From contig NZ_JAVHUY010000065.1 in assembly GCF_031085175.1 (NCBI RefSeq), positions 1 through 47,842 on the forward strand: DNA of 47,842 bases, written 5' to 3'. A program made the translations under genes and the position numbers. The DNA is from Phytohabitans maris (GTDB taxonomy: Bacteria; Actinomycetota; Actinomycetes; Mycobacteriales; Micromonosporaceae). Each line of letters opens with the position of its first letter. The stretch's first letter is position 1. Shown piece by piece: positions 4,293-32,095 of this stretch. The notes beneath the pieces were generated by a model. The model had not been told where the DNA came from and did not search any database. It saw only the letters and a program-made list of their open reading frames with translations.

Positions 4293-4346
4293 GTGATCGA
4301 AGCTCCCCCCAAGTCGTTCTAGCGACATGAGGGGAGCTTCGATCAC
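4293..4346. repeat. 54-base palindromic repeat, copy 1 (possible bidirectional terminator)
   Basis: Two 23-base arms, GTGATCGAAGCTCCCC and onward, paired at 21 of 23 positions around an 8-base centre (gttctagc). It begins 9 bases after the MMPL stop and lies between convergent genes. A second copy is at 32042-32095, identical at 49 of 54 positions. There is no U-run, so terminator action is inferred from position and stem strength. Confidence 0.85.
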
Positions 4347-4347
4347 C

Positions 4348-4382
4348 GCGAGCGGCTCTCGCGAGCGGCTCTCCGCGAGCGG
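4348..4382. repeat. 13-base tandem repeat
   Basis: The unit gcgagcggctctc occurs twice head to tail (4348-4360, 4361-4373), followed by a partial third unit. It abuts the 54-base palindrome and fills most of the space up to the convergent gene. Confidence 0.7.
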
Positions 4383-4409
4383 CGGCGGCCGCGCCGAGCG
4401 GTGAAAGCG

Positions 4410-4832
4410 TTACCAGGTGCGGGTTTCGGCGACCACGCCGAAGCCCGCACCGCGCCATTCCATCATCTTGCGCGCGGTCTCCGCCTGGGCCGCCGGGACG
4501 CTGTACACGAGGTGGCCGTCACCCGCCGTGGCGCCCTCGCCGGACCAGCGCTGGTAGTCGGACCAGTCGCCGTCGAAGACGCAGATCGCCGCCTCCAGGG
4601 CCCGGTACGCCGGGTCCACCGGGCACCCGGGGTTGAGCACCACCAGCCCGAACCCGGCCCGCCGGGCCACCCGTACGGCCAGCGCGACACCGCCCAGCCC
4701 GGCCAGGTCGCTGGGCGCCCGGTCCAGGAAGATCCCGCCATGCGGGTGCGCCGCCCGCCGCTGCACGGCCTCCAGGACATCGGCGAGCGGCCGTTCGCCG
4801 TACTCCAGGTCGACCTTGACCAGCCGGTCCAT
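4410..4832 (-). CDS. short spherulin-4-like (GH114-related) protein
   Basis: A 140-residue protein that resembles the second half of spherulation-specific family 4 proteins, relatives of alpha-1,4-polygalactosaminidases. Visible landmarks are VKVDLEYGERP (compare the family's GY-V-x-Y-G-R), GGIFLDRAP (compare the family's G-F-F-D-E), VVLNPGCPVDPAYRALE (family NPG-x-P-D-x-Y) and CVFDGDWSDYQRW. The family is usually well over 200 residues; the N-terminal strand and the NP-x-GPG segment are absent, and the acidic residue after IFLD is Arg. Its ATG overlaps the TGA of the upstream membrane-protein gene (ATGA), so translation is probably coupled. With the PelF-like enzyme two genes upstream, a role in handling a galactosamine-type polymer is a reasonable inference, but catalytic activity is doubtful. 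Confidence 0.55.
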   Translation of the reverse strand: MDRLVKVDLEYGERPLADVLEAVQRRAAHPHGGIFLDRAPSDLAGLGGVALAVRVARRAGFGLVVLNPGCPVDPAYRALEAAICVFDGDWSDYQRWSGEGATAGDGHLVYSVPAAQAETARKMMEWRGAGFGVVAETRTW

Positions 4833-5995
4833 CAGTAGCGCTCGGGGTCGAAGACGGCGTGCGCGGCCAGCATCAGCCCGACCAGGTAGGTGACCGCGAG
4901 CGCGGCGACGGTGGCCGGCAGCAGCGTGCCACCGGCCGCGAGCGCGGAGAGCGGGCCGGCCGCCACCACCGCGGCCACGACCGGGCGCGCGCGGGCGACC
5001 AGGAGCGCGGTCAGCGCCAGCACGCCGCCGAGCAGCAGCACCGCCGCGCCGCTGAGCACGAGGCCGCGGGCGCCCGGATGGCCGGAGATCTGGTACGGCA
5101 GCCGGTAGGCCGCCGCGCCCAGCGCGACACCCGCCACCAGCGGCGGCACCAGCGCCCCGACGGTCACCGTGCCGAGGTCACGCACCTCACGGTGAAAGGC
5201 CCGCAGGTCGTCGTGGGCGTCCGCCGCGGTGGCGGCGCGGGCTTCGTGCCAGCACACCACGAAAACCAGCAGCGGTACGCCCAACGCCAGTACCGCCGCG
5301 TCCGGGGCGGCTCGCCACACGAGTACCGCCAGGGCGCCCTGGCCGAGCGCGGCGACGACGCCGGTCACCGGTGCGCGTTCCCGCACCAGTAGCGCGCCGG
5401 CGAGCATCGGCGCGGCGGCCAGCGGGAGCACCTCGACCCGGTCCCCGGCGCCGGCCAGCAGCGCGCCGGCGGCCACCCAGGCCGGTACCGCCCAGCGCAG
5501 CCCCGCCCCGAGGCCGGCGACCAGCGCGTACCCGGTCAGGCCGACGGCCAGCGCCAGTCCCCGGTCGCCGGCCGGGCCCACCACGGACGCCGGGGCGAGC
5601 GCGCACGCGGTGGCGACCAGTGGTGCGCCGGCCGCCGCGTACACCCGCCCGCGCGCGGCCGCCCAGCCGAGCACGGCCGCCAGCGCCGGTACCGCCCAGC
5701 CGACCCGGGCCACCTCGTCCGCGGCGGCCAGCGCGCAGGCGACCGGGGTGAGCAGCAGCGCGGAGCGGCGCAGGGCGGCCCACACGTACGGCTTGGGGCG
5801 GGGCGCCCGCGCCGGCGGCTGCTCCAGCCGGGCGAGCACCGCCTCGCCGAGCGCGAATACGGTGGGCTGCCCGTACCGCCGGGCGGCCACCCGGTCGTTG
5901 ATCCCGGCCGCCTCCAGCGCGGCGACCAGTTCATCCACATCGGACACGCCGCGCTCGAACCGCTTGGCCAGCTCGGCCACTGTGGACTCACTCAT
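4832..5995 (-). CDS. polytopic membrane protein of the PelF-like cluster
   Basis: A 387-residue protein with a cytoplasmic N-terminal stretch of about 75 residues (MSESTVAELAKRFERGVSDV, then a predicted helical segment ending in RPKPYVW), followed by about ten Ala/Val/Leu-rich membrane helices to the C-terminus (ends HAVFDPERY). I do not recognise a named family. Position between a PelF-like glycosyltransferase and a spherulin-4-like gene suggests a membrane partner for polymer synthesis or export, comparable in role to PelE/PelG, but this is inference. The frame is open to 6235; the ATG at 5995 is chosen because the upstream extension is a Cys/Trp/Arg-rich shadow of the neighbouring gene. 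It overlaps the next gene by ATGA. Confidence 0.65.
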   Translation of the reverse strand: MSESTVAELAKRFERGVSDVDELVAALEAAGINDRVAARRYGQPTVFALGEAVLARLEQPPARAPRPKPYVWAALRRSALLLTPVACALAAADEVARVGWAVPALAAVLGWAAARGRVYAAAGAPLVATACALAPASVVGPAGDRGLALAVGLTGYALVAGLGAGLRWAVPAWVAAGALLAGAGDRVEVLPLAAAPMLAGALLVRERAPVTGVVAALGQGALAVLVWRAAPDAAVLALGVPLLVFVVCWHEARAATAADAHDDLRAFHREVRDLGTVTVGALVPPLVAGVALGAAAYRLPYQISGHPGARGLVLSGAAVLLLGGVLALTALLVARARPVVAAVVAAGPLSALAAGGTLLPATVAALAVTYLVGLMLAAHAVFDPERY

Positions 5996-6028
5996 GGCCG
6001 TCCTCGCTTCGCTGCGGGCGGCCATGAG
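5991..6028. repeat. inverted repeat over the start of the membrane-protein gene
   Basis: Arms ctcatggccg and cggccatgag (10 bases, perfect) enclose 18 bases that contain cgcttcgctgcgg. The left arm contains the start codon of the minus-strand gene, so the stem could hide it in the mRNA. The 13-base inner motif recurs at 28457-28469, and a related AGCGAAGCGA motif lies in trmD. Confidence 0.65.
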
Positions 6029-6056
6029 GCTCCAGACGCGCTGTGCATTCGCTCGC

Positions 6057-7430
6057 TCATGCTGCCACGTCCTGGTAGAGGTGGTCGTAGGCGCGGCGCA
6101 TCCCGTCCACTGTGAACAGCCGCAGCGCCCGTGCCCGCCCGGCCGCGCCCAGCAGGTGGCGCCGCCGCGGGTCGCGCAGCAGCTCGGCGCAGGCGGTGCC
6201 GAGCGCGACCGGGTCGCCGGGCGGCACCACCACACCGGCCTCGCCGACCGCCTCGGCCACCGCGCCCACGTCGGTGCTGACCGTGGGCCGGGCGCAGAGC
6301 ATCGCCTCGACCAGCGCGTCCGGGGTGTGCTCGGCGACGCTGGAGGAGGCGACGACGTGCCCCGTGGCGTACGCCTCGCGGCTGGACGGCACCGGCCCGG
6401 TGAAGACCACGCTGTCGCCGAGCCGGAGCCGGTCGACGAGGCGGCGGCAGGTACCCGCGTACCCGATGTCGGTCGTGGGTCCGGCGAGCCGGAGCCCGGC
6501 GTGCGGCACCTCGTCGCGGACCTGGCGAAACGCGCGGATCAGGGTGTGCAGGTCCTTGTGCGGCGCGATCTGCCCGACCCAGACGAGCGCCGGCGCGGCC
6601 GGCTCGGTCTCCAGCGGCGCGTACCGCACCGGCTCCACGCCGCCCGGCACCACCACGACCTTGGCCGGGTCGGCGCCGTCGCGCAGCTCCCACCGCTGGT
6701 GGAAGCGGCTGGCCGAGGCGACGAGCGCGGCCTCCGCGTACCCGAGGCGGCGCAGCGCCCGGTGGTAGCGCAGCAGCACCGCCTTGACCGCGGCCGGCCC
6801 CTCCGCTCCGACCTGCGGGCGGTCCTCGCTGAGCAGGAACGGCGTCCCCTCCCGCCACCGCGCGGCGAGCGCGACCAGCAGCGGTGGCCCGGCGGTGACG
6901 GCGTGGCAGAGGTCGGCGGCCGGCGCGCGTACCGCGAGCGGCTCCAGCGCGCGGTCGAGGTGGTCGGCGGCGTGGCGGGCGTCCCGGATCGAGAGGCGGG
7001 GCAGCGCCGGCTCGCCGCGGGACGCCTGCCAGGCGTCGAGCAGCACGTCGGCCAGGGGTACGCCGCGCAGCGGGGCGCCACCGGCGGCGGCCAGGTCGGC
7101 GAGCAGGCGCAGGCTCTCGGCGAACATCGCCATGCCCGGCCCGCCCTCGGTCAGCAGCCCCCGGCAGAGCAGCAGCGCGGCGGCGGTCGCGGCCCGGTGG
7201 CGGTGGCTGCGGGCCAGCCGCCCGGCCGGTGCGGGGCGGCGGTCGCCGAGCGGGTGGAGCAGGGCGTTGGGCGGGAGGGCGTACGCGGGCTCCCGGCGCC
7301 GCTTGCCGGGAGCGAGCGCGACCAGGTGGAACGTGTGCCGGTCGAGGCCGTGCACCAGCCGGTGGCACCAGTCGCCGGCGCCACCCTTGACGTACGGGTA
7401 GGAGTCGTCCGTGATGAGCGCGACGCGCAT
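6057..7430 (-). CDS. PelF-like glycosyltransferase (DUF3492 / GT4)
   Basis: Cytoplasmic GT-B glycosyltransferase. The N-terminus MRVALITDDSYPYVKGGAGD and the following WCHRLVHGLDRHTFHLVAL match the DUF3492 domain that marks PelF, the enzyme polymerising the galactosamine-rich Pel exopolysaccharide. The C-terminal half is a GT4 nucleotide-sugar domain: LVWVGQIAPHKDLHTLIRAF near 285-305, VVFTGPVPSSREAYATGHVV, and the E-x7-E type motif in AEHTPDALVEAMLCARPTVS. At 457 residues it is a little shorter than typical PelF. The ATG at 7430 has no clear ribosome binding site. It is followed after 61 bases by the membrane protein, suggesting one transcript of three genes. The precise sugar is inferred from family only. 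Confidence 0.75.
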   Translation of the reverse strand: MRVALITDDSYPYVKGGAGDWCHRLVHGLDRHTFHLVALAPGKRRREPAYALPPNALLHPLGDRRPAPAGRLARSHRHRAATAAALLLCRGLLTEGGPGMAMFAESLRLLADLAAAGGAPLRGVPLADVLLDAWQASRGEPALPRLSIRDARHAADHLDRALEPLAVRAPAADLCHAVTAGPPLLVALAARWREGTPFLLSEDRPQVGAEGPAAVKAVLLRYHRALRRLGYAEAALVASASRFHQRWELRDGADPAKVVVVPGGVEPVRYAPLETEPAAPALVWVGQIAPHKDLHTLIRAFRQVRDEVPHAGLRLAGPTTDIGYAGTCRRLVDRLRLGDSVVFTGPVPSSREAYATGHVVASSSVAEHTPDALVEAMLCARPTVSTDVGAVAEAVGEAGVVVPPGDPVALGTACAELLRDPRRRHLLGAAGRARALRLFTVDGMRRAYDHLYQDVAA

Positions 7431-7460
7431 GCAGGGGGCAACGATCGAGGTGTACCCCTA

Positions 7461-7478
7461 TAGCTGAGGTGTCAGCTA
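7461..7478. terminator. small hairpin between CAP gene and PelF-like gene
   Basis: Perfect 7-base arms tagctga / tcagcta with a 4-base loop, 11 bases past the stop of the CAP gene and 31 bases ahead of the PelF-like start. It could end the CAP transcript or act as an operator for the next operon. Confidence 0.4.
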
Positions 7479-7488
7479 CGCGACAGTG

Positions 7489-8247
7489 TCAGACCACCGA
7501 ACCGAACATCTGTGTCCAGTACGGGGTGCCGTTGCCCGCGTACGCCAGCCCGACGCCGATCGCCTTGGCGTCGCAGTTGAGGATGTTGGCGCGGTGCCCC
7601 TCGCTGTTCATCCAGCCGTCCATCACGGCGGCCGGGGTGCGGTAGCCGGCGGCCACGTTCTCGCCGATCGCGTTCGTGTACCCGGCCTCTTCCGAGCGCT
7701 CCCACGGGGTGCTGCCGTCGCTGCCGGTGTGCGACATGTTGTCGTGCTCGGCCTGGTCCTGGCTGTGCAGCCCGGCCGCGGCGGCGAGCTTGGCGTTGAC
7801 CTTGACCGGTCCGCAGCCGGCGGAGGCCCGCTCCTGGTTGGCGATCTCGACGACCTTGTTCTCGTCGGCCGACTGGGTCGGGCTGCTGCCGCTCTCGGTC
7901 GGCGGGCGGGTGGGAGTCGCGCTCGGCGAGCGCCTGGGCGTCGGGCTGGCCGGGGTGCGGGGCTTGGCCTTGGCGGTCGGCGACGGCTTGGGGCTCGCCG
8001 CCGGGCTCTGGGTGGGGTTCGCGGTCGCGCCCAGCGCGGTACCGAAACTGCCCGTTCCGCCCGCTTCGTCGGTACGCTCCGAAGCGGTCCGATTGGCCCC
8101 TGAATCGCCCGTCAGGTTGGGGCGCAGTACCGCCGCGCCCAAGGCCAGCAGAAGGGCGCCGACCAGCACCGCGAGCGCGAGTGGGCCGGGCAACCGGCGT
8201 GCTGACCGGTGCCGGCCGGTGTGCCTCGACGGCGCATCGGCGTCCAT
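7489..8247 (-). CDS. secreted or membrane-anchored CAP-domain protein
   Basis: A 252-residue extracytoplasmic protein. Residues 1-20 are basic (SRHTGRHRSARR), followed by one hydrophobic helix (LALAVLVGALLLALGAAVL, about 22-41), which is a signal anchor or signal peptide. A Pro/Thr/Ser-rich linker (about 75-125, with repeats such as SPAASPKPSPTAKAKP) leads to a CAP/SCP-like domain (about 130-252) with VVEIANQERASAGCGPV, HSQDQAEHDNMSHTG, GENVAAGY and the MDGWMNSEGHRANIL motif. The His and Glu positions of the CAP cavity are present. The function of bacterial CAP proteins is not settled. The start ATG is preceded on the minus strand by a GGAAGG ribosome binding site. Confidence 0.85.
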   Translation of the reverse strand: MDADAPSRHTGRHRSARRLPGPLALAVLVGALLLALGAAVLRPNLTGDSGANRTASERTDEAGGTGSFGTALGATANPTQSPAASPKPSPTAKAKPRTPASPTPRRSPSATPTRPPTESGSSPTQSADENKVVEIANQERASAGCGPVKVNAKLAAAAGLHSQDQAEHDNMSHTGSDGSTPWERSEEAGYTNAIGENVAAGYRTPAAVMDGWMNSEGHRANILNCDAKAIGVGLAYAGNGTPYWTQMFGSVV

Positions 8248-8563
8248 GGGGTCCTTCCCGGGTAGGTGGGCCGTGCCGGACGGTACGGGTGGGCTCCCAC
8301 CTGGGCAATCGCCCTAAGGAAGATCTAAGCCAGCACCAAGGATGCTATCGATCATGGGGATCAGACTGGACAAGAACGCCAATCAGAGCAGCGTGGGGGT
8401 GATGTGGGCCCGGTTAACTTGACGAAGTGGGCGTCTCGGCGGAGTATAGGGGCGTCGCCAGTCGCGCCCAATCATGCCCACGCGTGCCCGTGGGCTGATA
8501 GTCGCGAAGATAGCTGGGCGCGCGTTGGCCGGCCACTCCGGCAGCGCATTACAAGGAGACGAT

Positions 8564-8758
8564 ATGGCGAAGGCCCTCTACGGCCACGTTGGTGCGGCGC
8601 CCGATCGGCGCCTCCTCGACGAGGTCACCCGACTGCGTGCCAGGGTTCAGGCACTGGAGTTCGAGGTCACTAGGCTGCGTGCTGAAAATGACCGGCTCGC
8701 GGCGGCCGCTGCCGAGGCAGGAGACCTGCTGAGGCTGCCCGAACCGGCTCTGACCTGA
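8564..8758 (+). CDS. small conserved coiled-coil protein
   Basis: A 64-residue protein, MAKALYGHVGAAPDRRLLDE at the N-terminus, then a heptad-patterned stretch VTRLRARVQALEFEVTRLRA (about 21-40) that should form a parallel coiled coil, and a short acidic tail. An AAGGAG ribosome binding site lies 5 bases before the ATG; this decides the start against the longer frame from 8474. I recall similar short proteins in other actinobacteria with the same MAKALYGHV opening, function unknown. A strong hairpin follows 6 bases after the stop, so it seems to be a single-gene transcript. Confidence 0.75.
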   Translation: MAKALYGHVGAAPDRRLLDEVTRLRARVQALEFEVTRLRAENDRLAAAAAEAGDLLRLPEPALT

Positions 8759-8764
8759 GCTTCC

Positions 8765-8787
8765 GGGCGCCGGGGCTGCCGGCGCCC
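8765..8787 (+). terminator. GC-rich terminator hairpin
   Basis: Perfect 9-base arms gggcgccgg / ccggcgccc with a 5-base loop, starting 6 bases after the stop of the coiled-coil gene. There is no U-run, as is common in actinobacteria. Confidence 0.7.
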
Positions 8788-8822
8788 ACCGCCTTACAAC
8801 TCAATCGCATCGCACACACATC

Positions 8823-8859
8823 GCGCGCCGACACAACAAGTGGCGGCGCGCAGCTTTTT
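8823..8859 (+). terminator. intrinsic terminator with T-run
   Basis: Arms gcgcgccg / cggcgcgc with a 13-base loop, followed by agcttttt. This is a classic intrinsic terminator and lies in tandem with the hairpin at 8765. Together they isolate smc from upstream transcription. Confidence 0.6.
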
Positions 8860-8890
8860 GGCCGAGTTCGCCGGGCGTGCGGCTCGTCGC

Positions 8891-8930
8891 GGCGTGACGG
8901 TGCGGGGAGAGGCGTGACGGTGCGGGGAGA
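8891..8930. repeat. 20-base perfect tandem duplication upstream of smc
   Basis: The 20-base unit starting ggcgtgacgg occurs twice head to tail (8891-8910 and 8911-8930) without a mismatch, about 110 bases ahead of the smc start. It could be a doubled regulator site or a recent slippage duplication. Confidence 0.8.
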
Positions 8931-9039
8931 GCGGTGCCGAGGGGATTGTCGTTGTCCTTACCGTGCGGCGTGTCAAGTGCGTCGCCCGAGGTCGGGTTAC
9001 CCTGCCAAGGGAAGAGTCTCTGCGAGCGGATAGAAAGAC

Positions 9040-12000
9040 GTGCATTTAAAGAGCCTGACGGTGAAGGGCTTCAAGTCCTTCGCCTCCGCCACGACGTTGC
9101 GACTGGAGCCGGGCATCACCTGCGTGGTGGGCCCCAACGGCTCCGGTAAGTCCAACGTCGTCGACGCGATCGCCTGGGTGCTGGGCGAGCAGGGCGCGAA
9201 GGCGCTGCGCGGCGGCAAGATGGAAGACGTGATCTTCGCCGGCACGGCCGGCCGCGCGCCGCTGGGCCGCGCCGAGGTCACGCTCACCATCGACAACACC
9301 GACGGCGCGTTGCCGATCGACTACACCGAGGTGTCGATCACGCGGCGGATGTTTCGGTCGGGCGAGAGTGAGTACGAGATCAACGGCAGCTCCTGCCGCC
9401 TGCTCGACATCCAGGAGCTGCTCTCCGACTCCGGTATCGGCCGGGAGATGCACGTCATCGTGGGGCAGGGCCAGCTCGACGCCGTGCTGCACGCCAAGCC
9501 CGAAGACCGGCGGGCGTTCATCGAGGAGGCGGCCGGCGTCCTCAAGCACCGCAAGCGCAAGGAAAAGGCGCTGCGCAAGCTCGACGCGATGCAGGCCAAC
9601 CTCAACCGGCTCACCGACCTGACCGCCGAGCTGCGCCGCCAGCTCAAGCCGCTCGGCAAGCAGGCCGAGGTGGCCCGCCGCGCCGCCGGTATCCAGGCAG
9701 ACCTGCGCGATGCCCGGCTGCGCCTGCTTGCCGACGATCTGTCCACATTGCGCTCCACTCTGGACAAGGAGATCGCCGACGAGACCGCGCTGCGCGAGCG
9801 GCGTGAGCTTATCGAGCACCAGTACGGCGAGGTCGGCCGGCGGCTGGCCCAGCTGGAGGCGGCGCTGGCCGAAGACGCCCCGCTGCTCGCCGCCGCGCAG
9901 GACACCTGGTACAAGCTTTCCGCCCTGCAGGAGCGCTTCCGCTCCACCGAGCAGCTGGCCAGCGAGCGGCTGCGCCACCTGTCCGCCACGCCCGACGACG
10001 AGCGCCCGGGCCGCGACCCGGAGCAGCTGGCCGCCGAGGCGGAAAAGGTACGGGCCCAGGAGGAGGAGCTGCGCGCCGCGCTCAAAGCCGACCAAGCGCA
10101 CCTCGCCGAGGCCGTGGAGCGCCGCCAGGAGCTGGAGCGCCAGCTCGCCGACGCCGAGCGGGCCCTGCGTACCGCAGCGAAGGCGATCGCCGACCGCCGC
10201 GAAGGGCTGGCCAAGCTGACCGGCCAGGTCAACGCCGCCCGGGCGCGCACCACCAGCGCGGCCGAGGAGATCTCCCGGCTCGCCGCCGCCCACTCCGACG
10301 CCCAGTCCCGTGCGGAGAAGGCACAGGCCGAGGTGGACGCCGTGGCCGAGCTCTCCAGCGAGGCCGACCGCGACAACGCCGACCTCGACGCGCGGCACGA
10401 CGAGGCGGTGACCGCGCACGACGAGGCGGCCGCCCGGGTGCGGGCGCTGAGCGACGCCGAGCGGGCGGCCGAAAAGGAGGCCGCGACCTGGAAGGCGCGC
10501 GAGGACGCCCTGTCGATGAGCCTGCGCCGCAAGGACGGTGCCGGCGCGCTGCTGGCCCGCGCCGACCAGGTGCCCGGCCTGCTGGGCAGCCTCGCCGGCA
10601 TGCTGACCGTGGCGCCCGGCCACGAGGCGGCGCTCGCCGCGGCGCTGGGCGGCCTGGCCGACGCGGTGGCCGTGGCCGGCGTCGACGAGGCGACCGAGGC
10701 GATGCGGCTGCTCAAGATCCAGGACGCCGGCCGGGCCAGCCTGCTGGTCGGCAGCCCCGGCGGTCCCGGCATGATCGGGTCGCTCGACGCGCTCCGCCCG
10801 GCCCTGCCGGAGGGCGCGAAGTGGGCGCCGGACGTGGTGGGCTGCCCCGACCAGATCCGCCCGGCGGTGCACCGGGCGCTGCGCGACGTCGTACTCGTGC
10901 CGGATCTGGCCGCCGCGAGCCGGCTCGTGGCCGCCAACCCGGAGCTGCGCGCGGTCACGCCCGACGGCGACGTCGTCGGCGCCTACGCGGCGGCCGGCGG
11001 CTCGGCCAAGGCGCCGAGCTACATCGAGGTCCAGGCGGCGGTCGACGAGGCCAAGGCCCGCCGGGCCGAGGCCGAAGACGTGATGTCCGACGCGGCCGAG
11101 GAGCTCACCGAGGCCCGCGCCGAGGTGGCCGTCCTCAAGGAGGCCGTGACGGTCGCCGCGGCGGCCAAGAAGGAGGCCGAGGGGCAGCGCAACGCCGCCG
11201 CCCGGCGCCTCGCCGAGCTGGGTGCCGCGGCCCGCTCCGCCAAGGCGGAGACCGAGCGGCTGGCCGCCTCCCGGGCCAAGGCCGAGGAGGCCCGCGAGCG
11301 CGACCTGGCCGCCCTCGACGACCTGGAGGAGCGGCTGCGGCTGGCCGAAGACACCGCGGTCGACGAGGAGCCGGACACCGACGAGCGCGACCAGCTCGCC
11401 GCCGCCGTGCCGCAGGCCCGGCAAAACGAGATGGAGGTCCGCCTCGCGGTCCGCACCGCCGAGGAGCGGGTCGCCTCGATCGCCGGCCGGGCCGACTCGC
11501 TGGCCCGCCAGGCTGCCGCCGAGCGGGCCGCCCGCGAGCGCGCCGCCGCCCGCCGCGCCGCCCGGGCCCGTGGTGCCGGCATCGCCCGCGCCGTCGAGGT
11601 CGGCGCCCGCGAGGCGCTCGCCCGCGTCGCGGTCTCGCTGACCGACGCGGAGCGCACCCGAGACGAGATCGCCCAGTCGCGGTCCACGCGGGAGGCCGAG
11701 CTATCCGAGGTACGGGGGGCCGCCAAGCGCCTCGGCGCCGACCTGGAGCGGCTCACCAGCGAGGTGCACCGCGACGAGGTGGCCCGCGCCGAGCAGCGGA
11801 TGCGCATCGAGCAGCTGGAGATCAAGGCGGCCGAGGACTTCGGGCTCGACGTCGAGACGCTGGTCGCCGAGTACGGCCCGCAGCAGCCCGTGCCGCCGAC
11901 GCAGGCCGAGGTCAACGCCGCCGAGGCCGACGGCAAGCCGGCGCCGGAGCCGGTCGCGTACCACCGGCCGACCCAGGAGAAGCGGGCCGCCAAGGCCGAA

Positions 12001-13218: not shown

Positions 13219-13357
13219 GCCGGCCGGGCCGCCGGTAAGCGGCGTTCGCCGGTTATGTCCTTACTGACGGCGCGAGGAGTAGGTGAAGGCCCCTCGGTTA
13301 TTTTTGATATTGGGTGGGCCCAAACCGGGCTCACCTGTGTCATAGAAGGGGCAGGCT
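13219..13357 (+). other. AT-richer leader with imperfect hairpin before the GNAT-like gene
   Basis: The segment contains ttatttttgatattg, unusually AT-rich for this genome. It is flanked by ggtga...gccc...ggtt and aacc...gggc...tcacc, which can pair with small bulges. It could be a promoter or an attenuator for the next gene; nothing more specific is visible. Confidence 0.3.
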
Positions 13358-18509: not shown

Positions 18510-20279
18510 TCAGCCGCTGCTGGCGGCCCCCGAAGGTGCCCGCGCAGTGAGCTCTACGGCGGCCACCTCGCGCAGGTCACCGCCGGTGGTGGTGCCCTCG
18601 ATCAGCACCCGGGCCGACCGGCCCTCGTGCACCAGCGTGCTCACCGCGTTGCCGAAGTACGGGCCGGCGAGCTTGCGCCACCGCACCGCGGGCGCCGCGA
18701 CCCGGGCCGCCCGGGCCAGCGTGCGGGCGACCGCGGTCGGGCCCCGCCACCAGCCCAGCCGCAGCACCGGGCGCATGAAGGACTGGATCTGGTTGTGCAC
18801 CGGCGAGCAGGTCAGCTGGTGCACGGGCGCGGCGACCGGGCGGTCCCGGTAGAGGGCGCGGGCCACGTACGAGTGGTGGACGTCGCCGGAGAGCACGCTG
18901 ATCGAGGCGACCCCGGCCGAGCCGACCTCGGCGAAGAGCCCGGCGAGCGCGTCGAACGAGCCCTGCATCGACGCCCAGTGCTCCAGGTCGAACGCCCGGC
19001 GCTGCCGCTCGGCGAACGCCGCCACCCGGGGCCGCGCCGAGCCGGCCAGCCGCTCGTTCCACGCCTCCATGTGGTGGATGCCGGGCGGCAGCAGCCAGGG
19101 CAGCGACGAGCCCACCACCAGGTGGTCGAAGTCGCCCCGGGCGAGCCCGGCGAACCAGGCCCACTCGCCCGGCGGCAGCATCGCGCGGTGGCCCGGGTCG
19201 AGCACCCGGCTGCACCGGTTGTCCAGTACGACGAGGCGGGTGCGGCCCAGGTCGAGCGCGTAGCTCCACTGGTAGCCGGGCGCGCCGTCGGCCTCATGTC
19301 TTTCGGGTCCCTGTTCGTCGTTTGGCGACCCCGCCAAACGACGAACAGGGCTGGGAGGGCTGTCGACGGCGGTGCCGAACTCGCGCAGGACGTCCGTGGC
19401 GTCGTCGGCGGCGGCCATCACCTTCTGGTACACCGGGTCGGCGGCGATCTGGTCCGGGTCGAGGTTGCCCAGGTGCTGGTAGACCCAGTACGAGGCGAGG
19501 CCGCTGGAGATCCGCTCCGGCCACCACGGCTGCTCGCGCACCTCGCGGCGCCAGGAGGCGGAGGAGTTCCAGTCGTCGATGATCTCGTGGTCGTCGAAGA
19601 TCATGGCGCTCGGCACGGTGGCGAAGAGCCAGCGGATCTCCGGGTCACGCCACGACTCCAGGTAGAGCTGCGTGTACTCCTCGTAGGTGACCACCTCGTC
19701 TTCGGGGTGGTCGTGCTCGGAGTGCCGCGCCTTGCTGAGCAAGCGCTTGACGGCCGGCGAGGGGATATCGGCGTACACCTGGTCGCCGAGGAGGACGAGC
19801 AGGTCGGGGGCGGGCACCGCGCCGGACATCAGCCGCCGGGCGTAGGCGTCGAGCGCGTCCGGGGGTAGCTTGCGCGGCGTCGCGTGCTGGGTGGTCTCCC
19901 GGCAGGACCCGAAGACCAGCCGCACCGGCTGGTCGGTGTCGTCACCCTCGCGGGTGCGGATCACACTCGGCGGGTACGGGCTGCCCGGCTCGGGCCACAC
20001 GCGGGCGTCGTCGACGAACACCTCGTACGGCGTCGCGCCGCCCGGGGTGAGCCCTTCGACCACCACGATCGCGTAGTGGTGGCCGTACACGCTGAATGTC
20101 GTCGCCTCCCCAGCGGCCTCCCCGGCGGAGACCCGGACGGTGGCCGGCGCGCTGGTCTCCACCCAGACGGTGGCGCGCGTACCGACCACCCGGCGCAGCA
20201 CCGGGCCGATGACAAGCTCAGCGGACAACGGATCAAACCTCCGCTCGGGGGACTGGGGACCATCCTCTCTACCCGACAT
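18510..20279 (-). CDS. PhoD-type metallophosphatase
   Basis: A 589-residue enzyme of the PhoD-like alkaline phosphatase/phosphodiesterase family. An N-terminal Fn3-like domain (about 18-110, GPVLRRVVGTRATVWVETSA) precedes the calcineurin-like core: RLVFGSCRETTQ, LVLLGDQVYADIP (near 163), AMIFDDHEIIDDWN (near 226) and the C-terminal metal motif SVLSGDVHHSYVAR (near 461). There is no Tat signal, so this copy looks cytoplasmic, unlike exported PhoD. A 42-base palindrome lies in frame at about residues 310-324, in the segment running from VDSPPSPVRRLAG to DEQGPERHEADG, in a loop before YQWSYALDLGRTRLVVLD. The catalytic motifs are untouched. The start ATG has no ribosome binding site at good distance. 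Confidence 0.88.
   Translation of the reverse strand: MSGREDGPQSPERRFDPLSAELVIGPVLRRVVGTRATVWVETSAPATVRVSAGEAAGEATTFSVYGHHYAIVVVEGLTPGGATPYEVFVDDARVWPEPGSPYPPSVIRTREGDDTDQPVRLVFGSCRETTQHATPRKLPPDALDAYARRLMSGAVPAPDLLVLLGDQVYADIPSPAVKRLLSKARHSEHDHPEDEVVTYEEYTQLYLESWRDPEIRWLFATVPSAMIFDDHEIIDDWNSSASWRREVREQPWWPERISSGLASYWVYQHLGNLDPDQIAADPVYQKVMAAADDATDVLREFGTAVDSPPSPVRRLAGSPNDEQGPERHEADGAPGYQWSYALDLGRTRLVVLDNRCSRVLDPGHRAMLPPGEWAWFAGLARGDFDHLVVGSSLPWLLPPGIHHMEAWNERLAGSARPRVAAFAERQRRAFDLEHWASMQGSFDALAGLFAEVGSAGVASISVLSGDVHHSYVARALYRDRPVAAPVHQLTCSPVHNQIQSFMRPVLRLGWWRGPTAVARTLARAARVAAPAVRWRKLAGPYFGNAVSTLVHEGRSARVLIEGTTTGGDLREVAAVELTARAPSGAASSG
19309..19350. repeat. perfect 19-base palindrome inside the PhoD-type gene
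   Basis: Arms of 19 bases (ccctgttcgtcgtttggcg and its exact complement) around the loop accc. It lies in frame within the coding sequence; 42 bases equals 14 codons. A related half-element, with about 17 of 21 positions alike, occurs ahead of ffh at 32375-32395. Confidence 0.9.
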
Positions 20280-22397: not shown

Positions 22398-22434
22398 TTC
22401 ACACGTACGAAACAAAGCGTGACCTGTCGGAAAT
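22398..22434 (+). promoter_or_regulatory. probable GlnR operator ahead of amt-glnB-glnD
   Basis: Reads TTCAC-N6-GAAAC-N5-GTGAC-N6-GAAAT, matching the actinobacterial GlnR pattern gTnAc-n6-GaAAc repeated (one spacer is 5 rather than 6). It lies 114 bases before the amt start, where GlnR activates nitrogen genes. The match and the target operon agree; binding itself is inferred. Confidence 0.65.
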
Positions 22435-22547
22435 CGCGCAGGCACCGTGCGCGAAACCTCGGCCCTGAAAGCTTCCGCGCAACCGGCGTACGGGCAACGC
22501 TGCCCCGGATCTGCCGGAGGGAGGCAACCTAACCGAGAGGAGGCAGC

Positions 22548-24273
<1,726 letters not shown>

Positions 24274-24308
24274 TAGAGGTAAGCGACGAAGTCGGTGCCG
24301 CCGCACGC

Positions 24309-26489: not shown

Positions 26490-26623
26490 CCCGCCACTTC
26501 GCTCCGATCCGATCCCAGATTGTTGGGATGGGAACGCCGGCCCGCGCGCACTAGCGTTCCAGCTCTCGGCCGGACCGGCCGGGCGGATCGGCATGGGCTG
26601 CGACGGAAAACAGGAGAACCGTG
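26490..26623 (+). other. intergenic gap before the lipoprotein gene
   Basis: Contains a weak hairpin (atccca / tgggat at about 26512-26530), which may end the glnD transcript, and an AGGAG ribosome binding site at 26612-26616. Nothing else is recognised. Confidence 0.35.
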
Positions 26624-27244
26624 ATGCGTGGGATGGCACTTTCGGTGAGCACGCCCGGAGCCAGGGCAGCGCGCCGGCTGCTGGCGGTGGGCGCGACCGC
26701 GGCGGTACTGGCGGTGGGCGCCGGCTGCGGCGGTGACTCGGCGGATCCGGCCGCGCCGCCAGCCGATCCGGCCACCGTCGCGTCGTCGACAGCCGCGTCA
26801 TCGGCACTCGCGACCGACAGCGACGGATTCCCGGTCGACCCGTGCGCACTCGTGCCGAAGGAACTCGTGGAGTCCACGCTCGGGATCACGGTGGTGGACT
26901 CGGAGAAGAGCAAGACCGGCTGCGAGCTCAAGACGGCCGACTACAGCGCCGGCGGTGGAAGCTACGAGATCAACGTGTACCCCTGGGCGGAGGGCGGCGA
27001 ACAGACCTACACGCAACTGGCCGGCAGCACGGGTAACCCCGACTTCCGCAAGGTCGAGGGCCCATGGGACGAAGCCGTCTACTACCAGGAGATGGGCGGA
27101 GCACTCACGCTGGCATTCAAGACCGCCAAGTGGGGTGTGTCGACGCAGATCGGCGGCATCAAGCTCATGGATCGTCTTGGCGCCGACCTGAGTGCGCAGA
27201 TGACGGCACTGGCGAGCGCGGTGGCTCAGGCACTGGCGGCGTGA
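26624..27244 (+). CDS. DUF3558-like putative lipoprotein
   Basis: A 206-residue exported protein. It has a basic, hydrophobic N-terminus (ARAARRLLAVGATAAVLAVG) ending in a lipobox-like AGC at about residue 35, then a Ser/Ala/Thr-rich spacer and a DUF3558-type domain. DPCALVPKELVESTLGITVV and a second Cys in KSKTGCELKT suggest one disulfide. It should be anchored on the outer face of the cytoplasmic membrane. The ATG at 26624 lies 7 bases after AGGAG and is preferred over the GTG at 26621. Its end overlaps the convergent regulator gene by 19 bases. Function unknown. Confidence 0.78.
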   Translation: MRGMALSVSTPGARAARRLLAVGATAAVLAVGAGCGGDSADPAAPPADPATVASSTAASSALATDSDGFPVDPCALVPKELVESTLGITVVDSEKSKTGCELKTADYSAGGGSYEINVYPWAEGGEQTYTQLAGSTGNPDFRKVEGPWDEAVYYQEMGGALTLAFKTAKWGVSTQIGGIKLMDRLGADLSAQMTALASAVAQALAA

Positions 27245-28368
27245 TCCCCGTCAGGATCTACCACGCGGCCGTCCGTCGAGGTGGACGGCCGCGCCAGCTG
27301 TGGCAGGTAGTGCCGGGTGAACAGGGTGCTGATCAGGTCGCGGCGGCTGCGGACCCCGGTCTTGTCGAACACCGCTTTGAGATGGTCCTGCACCGTGTAC
27401 TCCGAGATCGCCAGCGCGCTGGCGATCCGCGCGGTGGAGTTGCCCAGCAGGACCTGCTGGGTGACCTGGCGCTCGCGCTGCGACAGGCCGTACGCGTCGA
27501 GCACGATCGCGGCGAGGTCGCCCGGCTCGGCCGGGCCGATCGCCACCGCGGTCATCGGGGCCTCGGCCGAGCCGATCCGCCAGGCGTGCAGCGCCACCCA
27601 CCGGCCGCTGCGGGTGCGGGTCCGCGACCGGGCCGGCGTCGCCGTGTCGGCGGTGGCCCGCGCGGCGACGGCACGCACGACGTACGGGAGGGCGGGGCCG
27701 CGGCCGGGATGGTGCTCCGGCAGGTCGTCCAGCCACCGCCGGGCGGTCGGCGACACGGTCACCTCGTCGTAGCGCCCGTCGAGCACCACGAGTCCGGGCG
27801 CGTCGGCGACGCCGCCGGTGTCGGAGCCACCCAGCAGCAGGGAGCGTCGTAGCGCCGCCGTGGCCGGTGTGCTGACCTGCCGGGCGGCGACGAGGTCGGC
27901 CTCGGTGAACGCGGGCGAGCCGGCCGCCCGGCACAGCACCAGCAGGCCCCAGGTGCGGCCGCCCTGGCGCAACACGACCCGCAGCTCGTCCCGCAGGCCC
28001 AACGGCCGCAGGATGTCGCGGTAGTACTTGCTCGTCGACAGGTCTCCGCCGGTGGAGGTGCTGAGCAGGCTGACCGGATCCGGGCGGCGGACCAGCGCGC
28101 GCAAGCTGTCGACGTCGTCCTGCTCGATGTGCTCGATCTCGAACAGCCGAGGCATCGTCGTCTCCGGAAAGCCGTTGGCGTGCTGACCGCCGGTGTCCAG
28201 CAGGGTCGACGGATCCAGGACCACCCCGCACCAGACGTCGGCCGGCACCAGCCGGGTGATGCCGCCGGTGGCCGCCTGGAGGACGTCCAGGGTCGCTTCG
28301 GCGGTGCGCAGGTCACCGTCGATCCGTCGCAGGCCGCGTTGGATCGCGTCGGCGGTCAGGGTGGGCAT
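27226..28368 (-). CDS. GAF-LuxR transcription regulator
   Basis: A 380-residue regulator. The N-terminal two thirds resemble a GAF-like sensor (LRVVLRQGGRTWGLLVLCRA and ADLVAARQVSTPATAALRRS around 140-180), then a possible PAS-like stretch (APGLVVLDGRYDEVTVSPTA). The C-terminus is a LuxR/NarL DNA-binding domain: LSQRERQVTQQVLLGNSTAR, then IASALAISEYTVQDHLKAVF and DKTGVRSRRDLIS (about 295-350). There is no receiver domain, so a small ligand rather than phosphorylation is the likely signal. It is divergent from the ABC transporter operon, with 136 bases between, and may control it through the palindrome at 28428. Confidence 0.85.
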   Translation of the reverse strand: MPTLTADAIQRGLRRIDGDLRTAEATLDVLQAATGGITRLVPADVWCGVVLDPSTLLDTGGQHANGFPETTMPRLFEIEHIEQDDVDSLRALVRRPDPVSLLSTSTGGDLSTSKYYRDILRPLGLRDELRVVLRQGGRTWGLLVLCRAAGSPAFTEADLVAARQVSTPATAALRRSLLLGGSDTGGVADAPGLVVLDGRYDEVTVSPTARRWLDDLPEHHPGRGPALPYVVRAVAARATADTATPARSRTRTRSGRWVALHAWRIGSAEAPMTAVAIGPAEPGDLAAIVLDAYGLSQRERQVTQQVLLGNSTARIASALAISEYTVQDHLKAVFDKTGVRSRRDLISTLFTRHYLPQLARPSTSTDGRVVDPDGDHAASA

Positions 28369-28427
28369 GCGGTGATGCTAGGTAGCGATCCCCGATCCCC
28401 GGGATAGGCCGATCGCCCCCGTCGCGC

Positions 28428-28449
28428 GTGTACGTCGGCGGGCGTACAC
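28428..28449. promoter_or_regulatory. palindrome in the divergent regulator/ABC promoter region
   Basis: Perfect 7-base arms gtgtacg / cgtacac separated by 8 bases, centrally placed between the LuxR-type regulator and the ABC operon. This is a typical place and size for an operator. Just beyond lies cgcttcgctgcgg, a motif also found at 6005-6017. Confidence 0.5.
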
Positions 28450-28504
28450 CGACTCACGCTTCGCTGCGGACGCCGTTCGGCGCGGTTCGGGCGAGGCTGG
28501 CCGC

Positions 28505-29386
28505 ATGTTTCCAGTAGAGACCCGCGAGCTCACCAAGCGGTACGGCCAGCTGGTCGCCGTCGACCGGGTGAGCCTCACCGTACGGCCCGGAGAGGTCTAC
28601 GGGTTCCTCGGCCCGAACGGGGCGGGGAAGACGACCACACTGCGGATGCTGCTCGGCCTGGTACGGCCATCGTCGGGCACGGTCCGGCTGTTCGGCGAGG
28701 ACGTCGGGCAGAGCCTGGGCGACGTCGGCGCGCTGATCGAGGGGCCGGCGTTCTACCCGTACCTGTCGGGGCGGGACAACCTGCGCGTCCTCGCCCGCTA
28801 CGCCGGGTGCCCCGCCGGCCGCGTCGGCGTCGTGCTCGACCTGGTCGACCTGACCGACCGGGCCGGGGACCGCTACGGCACTTACTCCCTCGGCATGAAG
28901 CAGCGGCTCGGCGTGGCCGCCGCCCTGCTCAAGGACCCCAAGCTGCTGATCCTCGACGAGCCCACCAACGGGCTCGACCCGGCCGGCATGGCGGACATGC
29001 GGCGGCTGATCCGGCGGCTCGGCGCGGCCGGCAAGACCGTGCTGCTCTCCAGCCACATGCTCGGCGAGGTGCAGCAGATCTGCGACCGGGTCGGCGTCGT
29101 CTCCGGCGGCCGCCTCATCGCCGAGAGCACCGTGGCCGAGCTGCGCGGGGGTGCGCGGCTGCGGGTGGTCGCCGATCCGATCCAGGACGCGGCCGCCCGG
29201 GTACGGGCCCTGGTGGGGCAGGACCGGGTACGGGTCGAGGACGGCGCCCTGGAGCTGGACATCGAGGCGGGCAAGGCGGCCTGGATCAACGCCGAGCTGG
29301 TGGGCGCCGGCATCGACGTGAGTGAGCTGGGCGTGCGCGAACGGGAGTTGGAAGACGTCTTCTTGGAGCTGACACATGTTGGGTAG
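28505..29386 (+). CDS. ABC transporter ATP-binding protein
   Basis: A 293-residue ATPase of the BcrA/drug-resistance type. Walker A is FLGPNGAGKTTTLRMLLGL (about 38-56), the Q-loop region gives GALIEGPAFYPYLSGRDNL, the signature is the YSLGMKQRLG variant seen in BcrA-like ATPases, Walker B is LLILDEPTNGLDP, and the H-loop is LLSSHML. A C-terminal extension of about 80 residues is usual for the group. It is the first gene of a four-gene operon with permease, kinase and response regulator. Likely substrates are antimicrobial peptides or lipids, by family only. Confidence 0.9.
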   Translation: MFPVETRELTKRYGQLVAVDRVSLTVRPGEVYGFLGPNGAGKTTTLRMLLGLVRPSSGTVRLFGEDVGQSLGDVGALIEGPAFYPYLSGRDNLRVLARYAGCPAGRVGVVLDLVDLTDRAGDRYGTYSLGMKQRLGVAAALLKDPKLLILDEPTNGLDPAGMADMRRLIRRLGAAGKTVLLSSHMLGEVQQICDRVGVVSGGRLIAESTVAELRGGARLRVVADPIQDAAARVRALVGQDRVRVEDGALELDIEAGKAAWINAELVGAGIDVSELGVRERELEDVFLELTHVG

Positions 29387-30200
29387 TACGCGAGCCGAGA
29401 TCACCAAGCTGGTGCGGCGCCCGGCGAGCTGGCTGCTGCTGGCCGTCGCCGTCGTGCTGAGCCTGACCTTCACCTACCTGGTCCCGTACGCCGGTGCGAA
29501 CGGCGCCGCCGACGGGGCGCCCAACGCCACCCGGGGCGTCGCCGAGACGCTGCCCGAGCACCTGGTCGGCAACTCGATCGGCGGGCTGCCGGTGTTCGCC
29601 GGCGCGATCCTGCTGATCCTCGGCGTGCTGGCGGTCGGCGGCGAGTACGGCTGGGGCACCTGGAAGACGCTGCTGGCCCAGGGGCCGTCGCGGCTCACCG
29701 TGTACGGCGCGAAGATCGCCGCCGTCGCGCTGGCCAGCCTCGCCGTCGTACTGGCGCTCTTCGCGACCGGTGCGGTGACCAGCGCGGCGATCGCGGCGGC
29801 CGAGGGGGCACCGGCCGACTGGCCGTCGTTCGTCGACCTGGCCGCCGGTATCGGGGCGGGCTGGCTGATGGCGGCGATGTGGGCCGGGCTCGGCGTGGTG
29901 CTGGCCGTCGCGCTGCGCGGCGTGGCGCTGCCGATCGGGCTGGGCCTGGTGTGGCTGATGGCGGTGCAAAACCTCCTCTCCGCCATCGCCGCGCCCCTGC
30001 TGGACTGGGTGGCGAAGCTGCAGGAGTGGCTGCCCGGCCCGAACGCCGGCTCGCTCGCCGCGTCGCTCGGCACCTCGCCGGACACCCCGGGCGTGGCCAC
30101 GCTGGTCGGGGACGGGCACGCGGTCGCCGTGCTGGCCGGGTACCTGATCCTCTTCGTCGGCGTCGGCGGCCTCCTGCTCCGCCGGCGGGACATCCTCTGA
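29376..30200 (+). CDS. ABC transporter permease
   Basis: A 274-residue membrane subunit with about six helices: SWLLLAVAVVLSLTFTYLVP, VFAGAILLILGVLAVGGEYG, IAAVALASLAVVLALFATGA, WLMAAMWAGLGVVLAVALRG, LPIGLGLVWLMAVQNLLSAI, and VAVLAGYLILFVGVGGLLLR. The GGEYGWGTWKTLL segment after helix 2 is typical of ABC-2 type permeases paired with BcrA-like ATPases. Its ATG overlaps the ATPase gene by 11 bases, so translation is coupled. The C-terminal RRRD is a short cytosolic tail. Confidence 0.87.
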   Translation: MLGSTRAEITKLVRRPASWLLLAVAVVLSLTFTYLVPYAGANGAADGAPNATRGVAETLPEHLVGNSIGGLPVFAGAILLILGVLAVGGEYGWGTWKTLLAQGPSRLTVYGAKIAAVALASLAVVLALFATGAVTSAAIAAAEGAPADWPSFVDLAAGIGAGWLMAAMWAGLGVVLAVALRGVALPIGLGLVWLMAVQNLLSAIAAPLLDWVAKLQEWLPGPNAGSLAASLGTSPDTPGVATLVGDGHAVAVLAGYLILFVGVGGLLLRRRDIL

Positions 30201-30258
30201 CCGGCGGCGGCGAGGGTCGGCGCCGGCAAGGACCGGCCGTGACAGGAAGAATGTGGTC

Positions 30259-31353
30259 ATGAACGAGGCACGCCGGAGGTGGGCAGCCGATGCCCTCCTG
30301 GCCGGCGTGCTCCTCGTGATCGGCATGGGCGGCACCCGGGCGGCGGGGCTGGTGCAGGAGCGGCCGGTCACCGCGTTCACGTTCGTGCTGGTCGCGGTCG
30401 TGGCGCTGTCGCTGGTGGTGCGGCGGTCCTGGCCGCTGGTCACGCTCGGGGTCGCGGCCGTCGGTGTCTCGATCTACCTGTCGCTGGGCTACCCGTATGG
30501 GCCGATCTTCTTCTCGTTCCTCGTGTCGGTCTACACGGTGGCCCGGCACCGGCCGCTCAAGCCGGCCGCGATCGCCGCCGGCGCGGCACTCACCGTCCTG
30601 CTGGTGCACACCGTGGTCGACGGCAACACGATGGGCCTGGGGCCGGCGGCGGCGTGGGTGGCGGTCCCGTTCGCGGTGGGGGTCACCGTGCGGATCAGCC
30701 GGGAGGCGGCGGCGCAGGCCCGGGACGACCTGGCCCGCCGGTACGCCGACGAGGAGCGGCTGCGCGTCGCCCAGGAGGTGCACGACGTGGTCGGCCACGG
30801 CCTCTCCGCGATCAACATGCAGGCCGAGATCGCCCTCCACCTGCTCGGCAAGCGCCCCGAGCAGGCCGAGGCGGCGCTCACCGCGATCAGCCGTACCAGC
30901 CGGGAGGCCCTGGACGAGCTGCGCGTGACGCTCGCACTCGTACGGCGTACCCGGGAAGGTGAGACAAGAGCGGCCACCGCGGGCCTGGCCCGTCTCGACG
31001 ACCTGGTGGCGCGGATGTCCGAGACCGGCGTGCCGGTCGAGGTCGAGGTCACCGGCGACCGGCGGGACCTGCCGGCGGCGGTGGATCTGGCAGCATACCG
31101 GGTGGTGCAGGAGTCGCTGACCAACGTGTTGCGCCACGCCGGCGCGGCGTCCGCCACCGTCCGGTTGGCCTACCTGCCCGAGGAGGTGAGCGTGGAGGTG
31201 GTCGACACCGGCCGCGGCGCGGCCGGCCCGCCCGGCGGCGGGCACGGCCTGGTCGGGATGCGCGAGCGGGTCGCGGCGCTGGGCGGCGAATTCACCGCCG
31301 GGCCGGTCGAGGGCGGCGGATTCCGGGTGTACGCGAGGCTGCCGCTGCCATGA
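30259..31353 (+). CDS. NarL-type sensor histidine kinase
   Basis: A 364-residue membrane kinase. Five or six helices occupy residues 10-150 with very short loops, then a HisKA_3 dimerisation domain with the phosphorylated His in VAQEVHDVVGHGLSAINMQA (His at about 175), and a HATPase domain with VVQESLTNVLRHAGA, VVDTGRG and GHGLVGMRERVAALGG. With little outside the membrane it probably senses an envelope stress through its transporter, as intramembrane-sensing kinases do. The ATG at 30259 lies 10 bases after AGGAAG; a GTG at 30253 is possible. Its stop overlaps the response regulator start (ATGA). Confidence 0.92.
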   Translation: MNEARRRWAADALLAGVLLVIGMGGTRAAGLVQERPVTAFTFVLVAVVALSLVVRRSWPLVTLGVAAVGVSIYLSLGYPYGPIFFSFLVSVYTVARHRPLKPAAIAAGAALTVLLVHTVVDGNTMGLGPAAAWVAVPFAVGVTVRISREAAAQARDDLARRYADEERLRVAQEVHDVVGHGLSAINMQAEIALHLLGKRPEQAEAALTAISRTSREALDELRVTLALVRRTREGETRAATAGLARLDDLVARMSETGVPVEVEVTGDRRDLPAAVDLAAYRVVQESLTNVLRHAGAASATVRLAYLPEEVSVEVVDTGRGAAGPPGGGHGLVGMRERVAALGGEFTAGPVEGGGFRVYARLPLP

Positions 31354-32006
31354 TCCGGGTACTCATCGCGGACGACCAGGACCTGGTGCGCCTCGGGCTG
31401 CGCACGCTCGTCGAGAGCGAAGACGACATGGCGGTGGCCGGCGAGGCGTCCGACGGGCTCGCAGCGGTGGAGGCGGCCCGGCGCGAGCGCCCCGACGTGG
31501 TGCTGATGGACATCCGCATGCCCGGCATCGACGGCATCGAGGCCACCCGGCGCATCGTGGCCGACCCTTCGCTCGCCGAGACCCGCGTCGTCGTGCTGAC
31601 CACCTTCGAGCTCGACGAGTACGTCTTCGACGCCCTCCGCCACGGCGCCAGCGGCTTCCTGATCAAGGACACCAAGCCGGCCGAGCTGCTGCACGCCATC
31701 CGCCTCGTCGCCGGCGGCGAGGCGCTGCTGTCCCCGTCGGTGACCCGGCGGGTGGTACGCGAGTTCGCCACCCGGCCCAGCCGCGTGCACAAGCCGCACC
31801 CCCAGCTCGACACGCTCACCGAGCGGGAGCGGGAGATCGTGGGGCTGGTCGGCGAGGGGTTGAGCAACGACGAGATCGCCGAGCGGCTCGTGGTCAGCCC
31901 GGCGACCGCCCGCACCCACGTCAGCCGCGCGATGATCAAGCTGGGCGCCCGAGACCGCGCCCAACTCGTCGTCTTCGCCTACCAGTCCGGCCTCGTCGAC
32001 TTCTAG
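31350..32006 (+). CDS. NarL/LuxR-family response regulator
   Basis: A 218-residue regulator, partner of the preceding kinase. The receiver domain (1-120) has the acidic pair in IRVLIADDQDLVRLG, the phosphorylated Asp at about 54 in VVLMDIRMPGIDG, the conserved Thr in VVVLTTFELDEYV and Lys in FLIKDTKPAELL. The LuxR HTH (about 152-210) has LTEREREIVGLVGEGLSNDE and IAERLVVSPATARTHVSRAM. It starts inside the kinase stop codon and is probably translated by coupling. It likely autoregulates the operon. A cluster of palindromes follows the stop. Confidence 0.93.
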   Translation: MIRVLIADDQDLVRLGLRTLVESEDDMAVAGEASDGLAAVEAARRERPDVVLMDIRMPGIDGIEATRRIVADPSLAETRVVVLTTFELDEYVFDALRHGASGFLIKDTKPAELLHAIRLVAGGEALLSPSVTRRVVREFATRPSRVHKPHPQLDTLTEREREIVGLVGEGLSNDEIAERLVVSPATARTHVSRAMIKLGARDRAQLVVFAYQSGLVDF

Positions 32007-32050
32007 ACACCCCTCGGGTGTGATCGAAACACCCCTCGGGTGTGATCGAA
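32007..32050. repeat. 22-base perfect tandem repeat of small hairpins
   Basis: Two exact copies of a 22-base unit (32007-32028 and 32029-32050), starting at the first base after the response regulator stop. Each unit holds the hairpin acaccc-ctc-gggtgt followed by gatcgaa. The last bases of the second copy are also the beginning of the 54-base palindrome, as though the repeats arose by duplication of its edge. Confidence 0.85.
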
Positions 32051-32095
32051 GCTCCCGTCAAGGCGTTCTAGCGACTTGACGGGAGCTTCGATCAC
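32042..32095. repeat. 54-base palindromic repeat, copy 2
   Basis: Same element as 4293-4346. Here 22 of 23 arm positions pair. At arm position 16 this copy has G paired with C where copy 1 has C paired with G, a compensatory change that favours selection on the hairpin. It lies 36 bases after a stop codon and probably terminates the two-component operon. Confidence 0.88.

Follow-up and report, generated by a model that had tools for sequence, protein, structure and literature searches.

Two 54-nt palindromes lie 28 kb apart in the window analysed here, a stretch of 47,842 nt that makes up contig C62 of the Phytohabitans maris genome (hereafter, G000; assembly 9.87 Mb, 97.3% complete), and they raise the question of whether such elements are local gene-end signals or members of a dispersed family. 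Based on their copy number, their position relative to genes, and orthologous sites in close relatives that lack them, we consider it probable that they belong to a family of mobile, non-autonomous palindromes at gene 3' ends that resembles repetitive extragenic palindromes (REPs). The two elements in the window are:

4293–4346, no strand: copy 1 of the palindrome, 54 nt, with foot GTGATC, a mid-stem, and loop TTCTAG, flanked by two convergent open reading frames (ORFs)
32042–32095, no strand: copy 2 of the palindrome, with a response-regulator-like ORF on one side and an ffh-like ORF on the other (both named by eye)

The coordinates, the palindromy, and the agreement of the copies at 49 of 54 positions, all reported in a first-pass annotation of this DNA, were correct on re-check, and both elements do stand shortly after stop codons, which end at 4283 (9 nt before copy 1) and 32006 (35 nt before copy 2). 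The minimum free energies are −40.5 kcal/mol for copy 1 and −43.6 kcal/mol for copy 2, with z about −10 for both folds, and none of 200 dinucleotide shuffles of either copy reached an equally stable fold. The annotation had also stated that the 23-base arms remain paired: the exchange of C-G for G-C between the copies at columns 16/39 (arm position 16) is real, but three pairs are mismatched (C-A at 17/38 and A-A at 20/35 in copy 1, G-A at 22/33 in copy 2). Rfam gave no match at gathering score across the window.

A genome-wide family, as the first-pass annotation had supposed, was borne out by the counts. The half-site TGATCGAAGCTCC, allowing at most one mismatch, matched 253 + 260 times in the 9.87 Mb, compared to 1 + 1 times for its reversed control, which corresponds to roughly 250 copies, provided that half-sites mostly occur in pairs, as at the listed places. 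A strict degenerate pattern covering the element from end to end found 163 copies (control: 0), and a covariance model (R1) gave at least 150 matches, some of them copies counted on both strands. Searched at E 0.01 over a sample of 832,430 bases (contigs C1, C34, C62, and C78:80001-160000), R1 returned 36 copies above 64 bits, followed by one match at 40 and one at 27 bits, so there is hardly any tail of decayed relics. The copy density in C34 and C78 is unrepresentative because both were picked for having matches. For alignment, 83 copy rows were gathered and reduced to 77 copies of 54 nt by removing four chance matches (8 substitutions) and two rows of 53 nt; since rows were collected partly by exact half-site or best model score, the conservation of the outer arms is somewhat overstated, a bias checked by the R1 search over the 832-kb sample. 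Fifteen loci with an odd half-site layout were mostly copies with an altered or truncated partner arm. In some cases the palindrome is embedded in an extended imperfect repeat, CTTTCGGAGTCGGG... (by a loose test that includes false matches, in 17 of the 83 rows), so that part of the flank similarity may reflect shared descent of a larger unit. At one of the fifteen loci (L219:1219-1434; G000:C7:21219-21434), main-family half-sites start 203 nt apart and the loop seems to contain an insert of about 160 nt. Very long poly-G/poly-C tracts adjoin copies or genes at L103:3219-3300 and L107:18818-18874 (G000:C1:283219 and 378818), and these may be assembly artefacts.

Relative to genes called with a simple codon-usage gene finder, the 36 copies of the 832-kb sample hold a narrow position. 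None lies wholly inside a predicted gene (an earlier, looser gene set had placed two copies inside genes), and 16 occupy convergent, 18 tandem, and two divergent spacers, compared to 59, 233, and 86 among all spacers of at least 54 nt (Fisher's test: p = 0.0001 for convergent enrichment, p = 0.02 for divergent spacers). A stop codon is faced by 34 of the 36 copies, 29 of which start within 30 nt of it, and 17 of the 18 tandem copies are closer to the stop than to the next start. The intergenic location behind stop codons that was noted for the two window copies therefore extends to the family in this sample. Eight predicted genes end at nucleotide 4 of the palindrome (TGA of GTGATC), and two others end inside it, one at nucleotide 30 (the loop TAG) and one at nucleotide 50. 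Comparison with G003, a genome of the same genus, shows that at C1:85782 and C1:267934 the palindrome coincides with the stop codon of a gene that is conserved in other respects. The hairpins of the 36 copies are GC-rich and range from −29.1 to −49.4 kcal/mol. Together, the stop-proximal position and a hairpin that is symmetric between strands point to a transcribed gene end, where its role would be termination without a U-tract or protection of mRNA 3' ends.

To follow individual sites, we compared copies with their counterparts in same-genus genomes, for which the surroundings of the two window copies are needed:

2055–4283, + strand: ORF, MMPL-like transporter (named by eye), ending 9 nt ahead of copy 1
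4284–4409, no strand: convergent spacer of copy 1, 126 nt
4410–4832, − strand: ORF converging on copy 1 from the opposite side
31350–32006, + strand: response-regulator-like ORF (named by eye), ending 35 nt ahead of copy 2
32007–32050, + strand: tandem duplication, 22 nt, two units of ACACCCCTCGGGTGTGATCGAA, the second overlapping the first 9 nt of copy 2
32406–33974, + strand: ffh-like ORF (named by eye), downstream of copy 2, the synteny anchor

At the copy 1 site, the convergent pair is only 9 nt apart and palindrome-free in G002, G003, and G004, which also lack the 63 nt of GAGCGG-rich repeats that lie 3' of copy 1. In the same three genomes, rearrangement has altered the copy 2 spacer, which yields no clear empty site. 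In G004 and G005, the stop codons at C1:308374 directly adjoin each other (0-nt spacer). On C1, at least one neighbouring gene has an ortholog in G003 for 12 of the 14 copies, and for eight of them this holds on either side, with orthologs that are not in every case adjacent in G003; the palindrome was present in none of the G003 flanks inspected for these copies (100 nt each). At two of these sites (C1:120026 and C1:343934), the G003 spacer holds a different GC-rich hairpin. Orthologous spacers of close relatives that lack the palindrome indicate that copies were gained recently, and the behaviour of a mobile element, one of the options raised by the first-pass annotation, is supported by these empty sites.

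The family is patchily distributed. Strict copies were found in nine of 300 Micromonosporaceae genomes (163, 51, 17, 16, 11, 3, 3, 1, and 1 copies) and, in a phylum-wide set of 396, in the own genome only, counts that reflect an exact pattern which overlooks divergent dialects. Within the genus, G000, G001, and G005 carry strict copies and G002, G003, and G004 carry none. With the covariance model, matches appeared in 27 of 151 genomes, counting the own one; in some of these they were single and weak, and G003 gave five despite its lack of strict copies. The mid-stem (columns 10–15) differs between carriers: it reads GCTCCC in G000, G074, and Catellatospora bangladeshensis (G055, where one of three copies reads GTTCCC); GCGTCC in G005, G001 (Micromonospora sp. 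CPCC 205371), G159, G080, Micromonospora deserti, and four of five copies of Catenuloplanes japonicus (G011); and GGACCC in Longispora albida (G044). Because the same mid-stems occur in different genera, the dialects cut across genera, and two of them are found within the genus of the window.

All copies share one design: a foot (TGATC/GATCA), a genome-specific mid-stem, and a tip of the form G..G(6-nt loop)C..C, together a 24-pair stem in 54 nt. Eight pairs (5, 6, 8, 10, 11, 13, 14, and 21) are invariant in the 77 copies, and most arm variation falls in columns 7, 15–17, 20, and 22 (78 rows, one of them a chance match), with columns 15–17 and 20 variable yet mostly paired. Watson-Crick pairing in the 77 copies exceeded the expectation from independent columns at 16/39 (55 copies, 27.7 expected), 7/48 (72, 57.3 expected), 15/40 (70, 60.3 expected), 17/38 (59, 49.8 expected), and 20/35 (44, 35.6 expected), and slightly at 18/37 (73, 69.4 expected), with no excess at 22/33 (57, 59.3 expected), 23/32 (74, 74.1 expected), or 1/54 (72, 71.2 expected). 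Twenty stems are perfect, 49 have 1–3 mismatched pairs, and eight have more. An initial set of 17 copies gave a weak signal: the percentage paired was reached by 23 of 500 shuffles and the number of doubly changed pairs by 96 of 500. Across genomes we aligned 22 hand-picked copies (1–5 per genome), in which 12 pairs are fixed by the search pattern and hence uninformative and 12 are free. Every one of the 12 free pairs changes on both sides somewhere, and double-change cells numbered 88, compared to 29.1 in shuffles (none of 500 reached 88) and no more than 11 in slid controls. Two additional measures, the number of pairs with a double change (reached by 73 of 500 shuffles) and further pair types (345 of 500), stayed within the shuffle range. 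All three reading frames are closed on one strand in 60 of the 77 copies, compared to 26% of shuffled palindromes, by TGA in the foot, TAG or TAA in the loop, and TGA behind the tip; because the copies share descent, this describes the element and does not test it.

The first-pass annotation had taken the differences between its two copies as the mark of selection on a hairpin. Pairing is indeed kept through double changes, but the variable pair 22/33 shows no covariation, and template switching between the arms during replication fits as well. That process can create and maintain hairpins (PMC8794818), and the tandem duplication that extends into copy 2 is in keeping with it. We regard it as a tentative possibility for the origin of the covariation, even though the 49 copies with 1–3 mismatched pairs show that homogenisation is incomplete. 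Selection on the hairpin and template switching would each explain the paired changes. Template switching accounts for covariation and not for dispersal or position, and may act alongside the movement of a mobile palindrome. A different view would make the copies bidirectional transcription terminators, kept by selection and spread by recombination and not by transposition. Convergent spacers, stop-proximal sites, and strong hairpins (−29 to −49 kcal/mol) speak for this, as do the different GC-rich hairpins that G003 holds at C1:120026 and C1:343934. A terminator requires pairing and not one particular sequence, yet all 77 copies agree at eight pairs, whereas pair 16 varies almost at random; a hairpin in the glnA spacer, in contrast, stays in place with its own sequence in G000 and four relatives. 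Intrinsic terminators likewise have a stable GC-rich hairpin right behind genes, but here one sequence is common to many loci and the T-tract is missing. With at least five T in 12 nt in none of 72 flanks, the U-tract of a canonical intrinsic terminator is absent, and the terminator option of the first-pass annotation finds no backing in that form. Overall, we judge the terminator explanation somewhat unlikely.

Classical REPs mobilised by the REP-associated Y1 transposase RAYT (TnpA_REP) offer the closest precedent. According to PMC3733652, GTAG REPs are high-copy and extragenic, lie behind genes in convergent and unidirectional arrangement, supply stop codons from their ends, and form species-specific variants, and the present family, with more than 100 copies, is alike in copy number, site, stop-supplying ends, and variants. 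It is unlike GTAG REPs and the RAYT-associated REPINs in being a full palindrome of 54 nt (compared to 20–40 bp) with a TGATC foot and no GT[AG]G, a motif found within 8 nt outside the foot in five of 77 copies and four of 77 control windows. Copies in the 36-copy sample are also singletons and not dimers, the smallest gap between two full same-family copies being 1301 nt; on C5 and C9, a lone arm lies 29–69 nt from another site. No match to the Y1 transposase family (PF01797) was found in the own genome, where a gene lost or missed is possible at 97.3% completeness, compared to matches in five of 14 control genomes. PF01797 was also absent from seven of the eight other strict carriers (the exception is G074), and among 16 other genomes only G074 and G089 had it, so the RAYT-type enzyme considered in the first-pass annotation is not supported. 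Membership in the classical REPs is on this basis very unlikely. CGTC-tagged REPs, described in the same source as high-copy, behind genes, and apparently without a dedicated transposase, have stems of 8–9 bp and a fixed CGTC tag; the present family shares copy number and site, and CGTC occurs within 8 nt of the foot in 18 of 77 copies (control: four of 77), but its stems are 24 bp and the tag is missing near the feet in 59 of 77. The 'double foot' REPs of TnpA_Y1 subclass 2.4 have both ends marked by a foot and its reverse complement (PMC6006769), as here, although the foot here is TGATC and not GT[AG]G and most carriers have no Y1 gene. Miniature inverted-repeat transposable elements are similarly short, non-autonomous, palindromic, and patchy, but the present copies have no target-site duplication and no parent element among 490 neighbour ORFs. 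The family works like a REP, but differs from REPs in their defining features. The least probable of the explanations we weighed is that a chromosome-organising protein uses the scattered copies as binding sites and that dialects track changes in this protein: the symmetry of the site and the strong base-specific conservation in its foot and mid-stem would suit this idea, but the idea gives no reason for a location just behind stop codons, and copies are gained at non-shared sites and are missing from same-genus genomes.

A REP-like mobile family of gene 3' ends remains the reading that we favour. Copies would be moved in trans by a factor that reads the foot and mid-stem, the dialects would be lineages of substrate and factor, and copies would survive at sites where they do no harm, behind genes. 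The hairpin, which has the same form in transcripts of either strand, could then serve as a bidirectional gene end through termination or mRNA 3'-end protection, and the foot may provide a TGA stop when insertion strikes a stop codon. A more elaborate version, which we find doubtful, is a portable gene-end cassette that combines the bidirectional hairpin with three-frame stops, a mobiliser other than Y1, dialects that turn over at partly shared gene ends, and replacement of older terminators.

Several results weigh against a freely mobile family. C1:110514 retains its native hairpin (compared to G003) next to the palindrome. In 500 kb of G005 there are four copies of its own dialect, two of them at gene ends also marked in G000 (hypergeometric p = 0.02, given 13 and 4 marked ends in a set of 209 orthologs). 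A third shares the gene-X/glnA spacer with a G000 copy, which stands 11 nt past the end of X where the G005 copy stands 26 nt past it; G003 lacks all three copies. Such shared sites would fit hot spots, or ancestral copies with a jointly changed dialect, as well as free movement. A target-site duplication of at least 4 nt was found in none of the 77 copies, and spacers with the palindrome removed were not clearly weaker in hairpins than controls (small groups of 4–13). No transposase recurs beside copies among the 490 neighbour ORFs, where the largest cluster (15 ORFs) resembles transporter proteins by eye, and no mobiliser emerged from these ORFs or from the PF01797 search. Recurrent neighbour genes were also tried as a source of a parent element, and the 490 ORFs near copies provided none. 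The IS91-type family PF04986 had no match in ten genomes, a result that is uninformative in that the controls were equally without match. One copy with its flanks had no match in PLSDB or INPHARED, and we found no paper on such palindromes in Micromonosporaceae in the open-access literature, a search outside which most subscription papers fall.

Other palindromes share this genomic setting. Behind copy 2, positions 32153–32209 form a second near-perfect palindrome of 57 nt (GGTACCACAAGTACGTTATG..., −47.9 kcal/mol), whose 18-nt half-site has 7 + 7 genomic matches at up to two mismatches (control: 0), a smaller family. Positions 19309–19350 hold a 42-nt palindrome, CCCTGTTCGTCGTTTGGCG..., with a similar one in the panB region of G004, and G005 contains several copies of further long palindromes, CGATCAAGGGCAAACGG..., some nested with shorter arms (L179–L184, e.g., L179:2820-2878). 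The hairpin downstream of glnA (CGTGAAGGCCGGCGCACC...; L106/L107 and L179–L198) has kept its position in G000, G001, G002, G003, and G005 while both of its arms have changed; as a terminator-like element that was putatively inherited vertically, it contrasts with the mobile family. Another palindrome family, with the half-site GCAGATCGTGGTA, is present on C1 of G000 (L090–L108), for example at 47203-47256, 88550-88603, 350710-350759, and 385222-385271. At up to one mismatch, its half-sites number 265 + 253 in G003, 99 + 96 in G000, 91 + 92 in G004, and 42 + 30 in G002, and are near controls of 3–6 in G001 (10 + 9) and G005 (8 + 11). This distribution is nearly the mirror image of that of the main family within one genus.

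If the favoured reading is true, REP-like mobile palindromes would extend to an actinomycete family that lacks the enzyme thought to drive REPs. Two palindrome families with nearly mirror-image distributions in one genus would then provide a clean setting in which to search for a second mobiliser and to ask whether gene ends come to be taken over by mobile repeats.

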